A DNA stretch of 25,570 bases from a virus, in the IMG/VR virus record IMGVR_UViG_3300042345_000148, positions 1-25,570 of that record; one strand, 5' to 3'. How positions within the stretch are numbered: the stretch's first letter is position 1; each line of letters starts with the position of its first letter. A model generated the notes under the pieces. That model worked only from the letters and a program-made list of their open reading frames with translations, was not told the origin of the DNA and made no database searches. Both the position numbers and the translations under genes were made by a program. Below, piece by piece: positions 22,956 through 24,851 of the stretch.

Positions 22956-23222
22956 GTGGTTGAGGGTGCTGTTTTGACGGCTGTGGCTGAGGCTACTGGT
23001 TTGTCTGTGGAGGATGTGCGCCGGGTGTTTGAGGCGCACCGGTTGGTGTCGGAAGGTGCGGTTGTTGGGACGATTGCGAAGGACCCTGAAACGGGCGCTG
23101 TTGCCGTTCGTATTAGCCAGAATGGTTTGCCTGTTTGGAAGATAAACACCGTCAGCGGTGACGAGTGGAAAGACGCCCAACCACGGTTGGATGGTTGGGA
23201 GATTCTGTTCCAACCAGAGTAA
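22956..23222 (+). CDS. Small protein at the end of the tail operon, unknown function
   Basis: An 88-residue protein. GTG 22956 is chosen because AAGGAG (22945-22950) lies 5 nt upstream; the GTG at 22950 overlaps that site. It begins MVEGAVLTAVAEATGLSVED, where TAVAEATGLSVEDVRRVFEAH resembles a small helical, perhaps helix-turn-helix-like bundle, followed by a beta part (VVGTIAKDPETGAVAVRISQ) and QPRLDGWEILFQPE at the end. It could be a tail-tip component or a small regulator; I cannot tell. It is the last plus-strand gene, and a convergent terminator starts 9 nt after its stop. Confidence 0.65.
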   Translation: MVEGAVLTAVAEATGLSVEDVRRVFEAHRLVSEGAVVGTIAKDPETGAVAVRISQNGLPVWKINTVSGDEWKDAQPRLDGWEILFQPE

Positions 23223-23231
23223 GCAAAGAAC

Positions 23232-23258
23232 CCCCCCTCTCACGAGGGGGGATTTTTT
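23232..23258. terminator. Bidirectional intrinsic terminator between tail operon and integrase
   Basis: CCCCCCTC (23232-23239) and GAGGGGGG (23244-23251) form a perfect 8-bp stem with a TCAC loop, followed by T6 at 23253-23258. Read from the other strand, the stem is followed by a T-rich TTCTTTGCTT. It lies between two convergent genes. The integrase stop codon is in the loop and its last codons form one arm. Confidence 0.88.
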
Positions 23259-24658
23259 GCGTTCAGACGGTCGAGGATTTCATCAGGGATATAGATTTCC
23301 CCGTGGATCATTTTAGTGCCTGGTGTGCGTTTCGTGCGGTAGGTGATCCCCGCACGCAGTAACAGTTCCCTGCGTTGTTCTTGTGTCCCTGTGTTCCACG
23401 CGTCTTTGAATAGCACCCCGGTTTCTTTGAATTCCCATCCTGGTTCACGGGCCGGTAATTTCTCCAACGCCTCTATCCGCCCGTCCAAAGCAAGCATCTG
23501 CTCATTCAACCTAGAACGCATACCAGCAGAACTGATTGTTCCTAGTAACGCTGTGAGTTCATCGACAGCCCGGTACGCCTCGTCTAATTCAGCTTGGTGG
23601 TTCTCCGCTGGCTGAAACACTTTCTCCAAAACAGGTGTTTCTTTGACAGCGTTTAGGAATGTTTCTTCGATCAGAGTTTCTGCCATCACCGCTTCGATGT
23701 GCGCGGTGTGACCGCCACGGCAGTAGTAGTACCGGTATGACTTTTTCTCTTTGACGTGGCATTGGTGGTAGAGGTTTGCCCCGCATTCCCAGCACAGGAT
23801 CACCCCCAGCAGGGGTGAGGTTTTGCTGACCCGGCGTGGGGCTGCCCGCCGTTCTTCCACGGCGCGTTGCAGCGCATCCCACTGGGTTTGTGTGAGTAGT
23901 GGTTCTGACCCGTAGATGGGTTTACCTTCCCGGTCCCGCACGGTGTTCCCCTCGTAGGTGGAGTGCCCTAGGAGGTATTTGGCGGTGATGATTTTCCAGA
24001 TCGTTTTGGCCGGCCACTTGACCCCGGTGGGGGAAGGGATGCCCTCTGTGTTGAGGTTGTCTGCTACTAGCTTGACGGGTTGCCCGTCAGTGACTTGCTG
24101 GACGATGCGGTGGATTATCGGGGCTGTGTCTGGGTTGTGTACCAGTGTCCATCCGCCGCCGTGTAGGGGTGCGGCTTGGAGCCCGTAGGGTACTGACCCT
24201 CCGGTCCATCTGCCGGCTTGCAGGAGGGCTTTACGGGACGCTCTGGTGCGCTCCCTGATGGCCTCAAGTTCACCTTCTGCTAGGAACGCTATGACGTTCG
24301 CTATGAGCCGGCCGACAGGCGTTGAGAGGTCGATTCCCTCAGAGCAAGACACAACCGTTTTGTTGTTGTCGATTGCCCACCCGAAGAGTTTGTTGAGCCT
24401 GATGGAGTCCCGGCCTAGCCGGTCCAGCTTCCACGCGCACAGCAGGTCCCAGTCTTGTTGTTTGTCCGGTGTGAGCCAGGGTCCTAGTGCTGGGGTGTCG
24501 AAGGGATCGACTGAACCGGAGACATCTAGGTCTTCGGCCCAGCCGACCACTTCGTGGGCGTTGGCGTGCGCCCATTGTTCGATAAGCTGCCGTTGACGTG
24601 CAGCGGAGGTTGATTCGTCTGTGAGTCTGGATAACCGGATTCTGCCTAGTACACGCAT
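23240..24658 (-). CDS. int: Large serine integrase (Bxb1-like)
   Basis: A 472-residue serine recombinase that integrates phage DNA at a bacterial attachment site. Seen: a catalytic N-terminal domain (VLGRIRLSRLTDES with nucleophile Ser10; AEDLDVSGSVDPFD; DRLGRDS with Arg80 and Arg83; LAEGELEAIRERTRA), a recombinase domain (about 150-275, GGSVPYGLQA, NTEGIPSPTG, KYLLGHSTYEGNTVRD), a zinc ribbon (Cys289, Cys292, Cys313, His317), a coiled coil (about 352-400) and a C-terminal GWEFKETGVLFKDAWNTG segment. The pattern AEDLDVSG.VDPFD is shared with Bxb1 integrase. ATG 24658 is the only start: a TAG lies in frame 18 nt upstream. No ribosome binding site is visible before it. The gene closes a leftward operon and meets the tail genes at a shared terminator. 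Confidence 0.96.
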   Translation of the reverse strand: MRVLGRIRLSRLTDESTSAARQRQLIEQWAHANAHEVVGWAEDLDVSGSVDPFDTPALGPWLTPDKQQDWDLLCAWKLDRLGRDSIRLNKLFGWAIDNNKTVVSCSEGIDLSTPVGRLIANVIAFLAEGELEAIRERTRASRKALLQAGRWTGGSVPYGLQAAPLHGGGWTLVHNPDTAPIIHRIVQQVTDGQPVKLVADNLNTEGIPSPTGVKWPAKTIWKIITAKYLLGHSTYEGNTVRDREGKPIYGSEPLLTQTQWDALQRAVEERRAAPRRVSKTSPLLGVILCWECGANLYHQCHVKEKKSYRYYYCRGGHTAHIEAVMAETLIEETFLNAVKETPVLEKVFQPAENHQAELDEAYRAVDELTALLGTISSAGMRSRLNEQMLALDGRIEALEKLPAREPGWEFKETGVLFKDAWNTGTQEQRRELLLRAGITYRTKRTPGTKMIHGEIYIPDEILDRLNAKNPPS

Positions 24659-24705
24659 TTCACAAACAGTAACCTATGACACATCAGGTGTCACGCTTTG
24701 TGAAA
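24658..24705. other. Candidate phage attachment site attP
   Basis: The short gap upstream of int is a 48-bp imperfect palindrome: TTTCACAAA (24658-24666) and TTTGTGAAA (24697-24705) are perfect 9-bp outer arms, and 16 of 24 symmetric pairs are complementary overall. An inner TGACAC (24677-24682) / GTGTCA (24688-24693) pair is centred 3.5 bp away. Bxb1 attP is also 48 bp with matching outer arms, and serine-integrase sites usually lie beside int. On outer-arm symmetry, the central dinucleotide would be 24681-24682 (AC on the plus strand). It could alternatively be an operator. Confidence 0.65.
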
Positions 24706-24707
24706 AA

Positions 24708-24851
24708 CTAGTTGAGTTCAACCCACTTTGAAAACTCGCTGTATTTCGGGCTGGGTTCATCCCAGCCTTGTTCGCCCCACAGCATCACGTCCAGGTTTCC
24801 CTTCTCCAACATGATCGTGTGGAGTTGCAGGATCAGTTCAGTCAGTTTCAT
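24708..24851 (-). CDS. Small protein upstream of integrase
   Basis: A 47-residue protein beginning MKLTELILQLHTIMLEKGNL, from ATG 24851 with GGAAGG 6 nt upstream; a longer frame reaching 24899 has no better start. It matches the general pattern of short phage proteins with an N-terminal helix of the TELILQL type followed by a G-[ND]-L-x-V strand (GNLDVMLWG). The function of such proteins is unknown. It overlaps its upstream neighbour by 14 nt, so it belongs to the leftward operon, and its stop lies just outside the palindrome before int. Confidence 0.72.
   Translation of the reverse strand: MKLTELILQLHTIMLEKGNLDVMLWGEQGWDEPSPKYSEFSKWVELN

Follow-up and report, generated by a model that had tools for sequence, protein, structure and literature searches.

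A 48-bp palindrome beside a serine integrase gene is very probably the phage attP site and probably holds a leaderless int promoter

The window, by which we mean the whole analyzed stretch of 25,570 bases, is a viral contig with a GC content of 56.6%. It derives from a temperate phage akin to the cluster A mycobacteriophages, and its terminase is ~76% identical to those of RhynO, Twister and others. The int gene (23240..24658, minus strand) encodes a product of 472 amino acids with three Pfam matches over the cut-off (Resolvase, Recombinase and Zn_ribbon_recom), and these resolvase, recombinase and zinc ribbon domains identify it as a large serine integrase. An RLSR motif containing Ser10 is invariant among its integrase relatives. 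The protein is ~55% identical to the integrases of Topanga and Twister and 54% identical to its counterpart in the M. abscessus phage phiGD24-3, and it matches the solved 500-residue integrase 9iu2 (chain E; 1.2e-64). We regard the assigned int start as sound because of the codons that precede the ATG in frame (TAG GTT ACT GTT TGT GAA) and because the N-terminal residues MRVLGR are conserved among relatives.

A hairpin with T/A tracts at 23227..23258 overlaps the int stop codon. It is strong, carries A/T tracts on both sides, and looks like a bidirectional terminator where tail-gene and int transcription converge. Upstream of int, a small gene of 47 amino acids counted from its ATG (24708..24851, minus strand) runs in the same direction and has no Pfam match. 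Its stop codon (24708-24710) leaves a gap of 49 bp before int (24659-24707), and nearly all of this gap is occupied by a palindrome at 24658-24705, as a previous interpretation of this DNA (the sequence-only reading) had pointed out.

The palindrome reads TTTCACAAACAGTAACCTATGACACATCAGGTGTCACGCTTTGTGAAA on the window strand and TTTCACAAAGCGTGACACCTGATG/TGTCATAGGTTACTGTTTGTGAAA in int sense (24658..24705, minus strand). It was described in the sequence-only reading as a 48-bp imperfect palindrome with perfect 9-bp outer arms, and the count bears this out: the sequence and its reverse complement agree at 32/48 positions, which makes 16 of 24 pairs, and the outer arms pair throughout (9/9). The arm of the P half, TTTCACAAA, lies at 24697..24705 and that of the P' half, TTTGTGAAA, at 24658..24666 (both minus strand), the last base of the latter being the A of the int ATG, so that the arm indeed touches the start codon. 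When the 48 bases were shuffled 20,000 times, a symmetry of 32/48 was never attained, and a position-maximised symmetry search gave 0/500 when compared with shuffles. Equal or higher 48-bp symmetry occurs elsewhere in the window, at 23218 (34/48, the highest, corresponding to the terminator) and at three other places (32/48). The palindrome is thus not unique by symmetry, and its distinguishing traits are its position, its perfect outer arms and its conservation. The window has one further copy of the outer arm TTTCACAAA, within a tail gene, which is the level expected by chance. At the palindrome centre (24681..24682, minus strand) lies the dinucleotide 5'-GT-3' in int sense, which is non-palindromic, as is usual for a serine-integrase attP, and which from the geometry we predict to be the crossover dinucleotide. 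The palindrome also contains an off-centre inner inverted repeat, TGACAC-ATCAG-GTGTCA, with perfect 6-bp arms (24677..24693), the centre of which is 3.5 bp away from the attP centre. The inner repeat is shortened in the relatives L030 and L031 (arms of 5 bp in L030) and absent in L032, and could be the site of another protein or a product of chance.

We evaluated the palindrome as a candidate attP by comparison, considering the serine integrase domains, the geometry, a relative with mapped junctions, conservation, and the replacement of arms with symmetry kept. Serine-integrase attP sites are imperfect inverted repeats of 45–50 bp next to int (PMC5311408), and the 48-bp element abutting int agrees in both respects. 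The requirement for 48 bp has been measured for the attP of Bxb1, whose central dinucleotide is GT (PMC3642061); the palindrome of the window agrees with it in length, symmetry, central GT and place, and the earlier attP call and its comparison with the 48 bp of Bxb1 are well supported. The zinc domain of LI integrase reads a 9-bp motif at attP half-site positions 16–24 (PMC3783163), and the perfect outer arms of the palindrome coincide exactly with these positions, where we predict the corresponding contacts. For phiGD24-3, the junctions of the prophage prophiGD24-3 were mapped to attB-7 in MAB_2445 (PMC8092301), and comparison of the phage and prophage records yields an 8-bp core, TACGACTT. 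This core lies at -38 to -31 and takes in the middle of a palindrome with the same geometry. In the window, the placement of the centre at 24681-24682, where the sequence-only reading had put a possible crossover, is well supported.

The conservation pattern delimits the same element. Between L030 and L031 the site is identical (48/48) while the upstream sequence is ~30% and int 72–88% identical; between these two and the window the site retains 43/48 bases and the upstream sequence 15–30% (all ungapped). Conservation ends where the palindrome does, at its outer edge. Seven distinct palindromes, including that of the window, are centred 22–23 bp before int in near relatives, with arms that differ yet pair; the sequences are related, so this and the other family counts are not independent observations. 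Across 15 sites, the arms of a site pair with each other at 7.4/9 positions as compared to 4.9 for re-dealt arms (maximum 6.5), a difference inflated by the sites having been picked for symmetry. Based on these observations, from which the identity, place and centre of the site all follow by comparison, we consider the 48-bp palindrome almost certainly to be the attP used by the serine integrase of the phage.

Searches for integrated copies, made in several collections, yielded no lysogen, prophage junction or attB of this phage. In bacterial genomes, the search for an integrated relative returned only a 22% Lachnospiraceae recombinase, and plasmid records contained distant recombinases only. 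Among viral contigs searched for split half-sites, all four contigs with the site (4/4) carry attP whole; the attP is likewise whole in the long GD24-3-like isolate contigs (L043, L084 and L052), from which no host flank was recovered. The L052 record, an isolate-derived provirus contig of 56,292 bases, opens within int and runs to the int start; its attP is whole and near one contig end, a layout consistent with a circular excised phage or with tandem copies.

The sequence-only reading had remarked that no ribosome binding site is visible before int, and this turns out to be a trait of the whole family. The window int has no Shine-Dalgarno-like 4-mer at -16 to -5, and such a 4-mer is present in only 1 of 25 distinct int upstreams (that of L041), versus 47 of 63 control genes, the latter being genes other than int, taken from nearby positions in ten reference phages. 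Conversely, a TANNNT box lies 6–8 nt before the start codon in 24 of the 25 int upstreams and in 3 of the 63 neighbouring genes; in shuffled int upstreams the mean count is 1.3 and the maximum 7. In the window, this -10-like box is TACTGT (24666..24671, minus strand), 7 nt before the int ATG and within the int-side half of attP. In HINdeR-type phages, the palindrome lies ~20 bp further upstream but the position of the -10 box relative to int is unchanged, which implies that the box is more than a by-product of the att arms. A -35-like element, GTGACA (24689..24694, minus strand), 17 bp upstream of the -10 box, is weak and belongs to the half of attP that integration would replace. A strict sigma-70 scan gave no promoter here.

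Leaderless mRNAs are common in mycobacteria. Together, the absent Shine-Dalgarno sequence and the -10 box 6–8 nt before the start codon, an arrangement typical of leaderless genes and found by comparison across the family, suggest a leaderless int promoter, which we judge likely to reside in the int-side half of attP. The combined explanation, in which the palindrome is attP and its int-side half contains this promoter, is in our assessment highly likely. Our literature search, with subscription papers outside its coverage, found no description of a leaderless int promoter within the attP of Bxb1-like phages. L041 (5940-6003) is the sole int relative without the -10 box; it has the Shine-Dalgarno sequence AAAGGAG and a GTG start instead, and is a case of a different way of expressing int. 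In Topanga (L009 1002-1489), the gene across attP is divergent and likewise preceded by a -10-like box, TAGGGT, which lies in the opposite attP arm at 8 nt from the ATG; the Topanga attP may thus hold two back-to-back leaderless promoters.

We propose the following sequence of events. An integrase dimer would bind the palindrome with the zinc domain of each subunit on one outer 9-bp arm, and recombination with the host attB would take place at the central GT. Integration would leave the int-side half and int next to host DNA and place the upstream genes at the opposite end of the prophage. That host DNA comes to lie upstream of int, as foreseen in the sequence-only reading, follows from the geometry and is ordinary, applying equally to Bxb1 and phiGD24-3. 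The int-side half, which holds the -10 box, would stay with int and its start codon after crossover at 24681-24682, and we infer that the int mRNA would start at or next to the int ATG. Because the box is in the retained half, int would be expressed mainly from its own promoter both before and after integration, and, as far as the sequence can tell, it is probably independent of the adjacent operon. Bound integrase would cover the promoter and would probably damp it (autorepression).

A different account of int, which builds on the sequence-only reading, is that int is the last gene of a leftward operon from which integration cuts it off, so that it is on in the free phage and off in the lysogen. 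The upstream genes do run in the same direction, and the terminator scan found none between the upstream operon and attP in the window, so that read-through of the operon into int is possible; moreover, the -35-like GTGACA sits in the exchanged half, and integrative elements such as ICEKp1 are known to have int promoters that respond to the integration state (PMC13023037). As stated, the claim that the operon feeds int and that integration switches it off is nevertheless unsupported. The -10 box is kept by int, which has no Shine-Dalgarno sequence, whereas the neighbouring genes of relatives use one; several relatives, including Bxb1, HINdeR, L050, L054 and GD24-3, have a strong terminator upstream of attP that blocks the operon, and upstream read-through should be low there; and excision requires integrase in the lysogen (PMC5311408). 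We therefore regard an operon-fed int as unlikely, and an own promoter within attP as the better account. Any change of int expression on integration, which we infer could arise only via the exchanged upstream half with its -35-like GTGACA or via read-through, is a possibility. We dropped the stronger proposal that the int promoter is dismantled by integration in every case, because a search across the int family found no shared -35 element.

The palindrome might instead serve as an operator, bound by the phage repressor, as already considered in the sequence-only reading, or by some other regulator of int, or it might act ahead of int as a transcription terminator or RNA hairpin. The inner repeat TGACAC-N5-GTGTCA could bind a dimeric regulator, and cluster A repressors bind many sites (PMC5712189). 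Such operators are repeated, however, and the window has no further copy of the arm except the chance one; the L5 stoperator consensus occurs in the window at chance level, and the 48-bp length and half-site layout fit attP. An operator role in place of attP is on these grounds very improbable. We likewise found no support for the palindrome as a cluster A stoperator, which is a 13-bp site with many intergenic copies, a judgment made with the L5 consensus. The attP sites of Twister and Topanga (L010 and L009; before 1489) contain TTGTCAAG, a sequence similar to the 3' portion of cluster A stoperators; with just 2 copies in the Twister genome, the likeness is probably due to chance. As to a terminator or RNA hairpin, the element is an inverted repeat in an intergenic gap, but its arms are A/T-rich, its interior spans 30 bp, it has no T run, the terminator scan does not find it, and a real terminator is present at 23227-23258; this role is scarcely conceivable.

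The attP–int arrangement is ordinary for Bxb1-like phages. Of greater use is the leaderless-promoter pattern, which offers a simple and testable account of integrase expression without a ribosome-binding site. If promoter and attP do overlap, the strand exchange that integrates the phage would also rebuild the integrase promoter. A more far-reaching and quite tentative idea is that the Bxb1-like attP may combine three roles, being the place of recombination, the core of the int promoter and the 5' end of the leaderless mRNA, with integrase repressing itself; integration might then swap the upstream promoter half for host DNA, and attB might set the int level of the lysogen. In practical terms, a well-delimited attP with its integrase, together with sister sites with different arms, is added to a family of genome-engineering tools.

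Comparison with known systems places these features in context. In KplE1 intS and ICEKp1, as may also hold for the window, the int promoter overlaps the recombination region and expression is tied to the integration state. These are other integrase systems, in which the behavior was shown by experiment (for KplE1, promoter overlap with negative autoregulation; PMC2951348) and is here predicted; KplE1 IntS uses arm-type sites and IHF, unlike the serine integrase of the window. The attP of Streptomyces phage phiJoe resembles that of the window in its 45–50 bp, its inverted repeats and its position just upstream of int, but is separated from int by an 18 bp gap and has a divergent RDF gene on its other side. 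In phiGD24-3/prophiGD24-3 (M. abscessus, cluster MabJ), a 48-bp palindrome likewise lies upstream of an int whose product is the 54% identical integrase, and the published junction core is at the palindrome centre; the centre is 31 bp rather than 23 bp before int, a terminator lies upstream, and the arms are different. Bxb1 (NC_002656) shares with the window a 48-bp attP with 16/24 symmetric pairs, the central GT, the place of attP, which in Bxb1 ends 1 bp before the int ATG, the lack of a Shine-Dalgarno sequence, and a TANNNT box, at 8 nt from the ATG in Bxb1. The differences are that Bxb1 int points rightward in its record, that its attP is preceded by a terminator, and that the arm sequences are not the same, with perfect outer arms of 7 bp instead of 9 bp.
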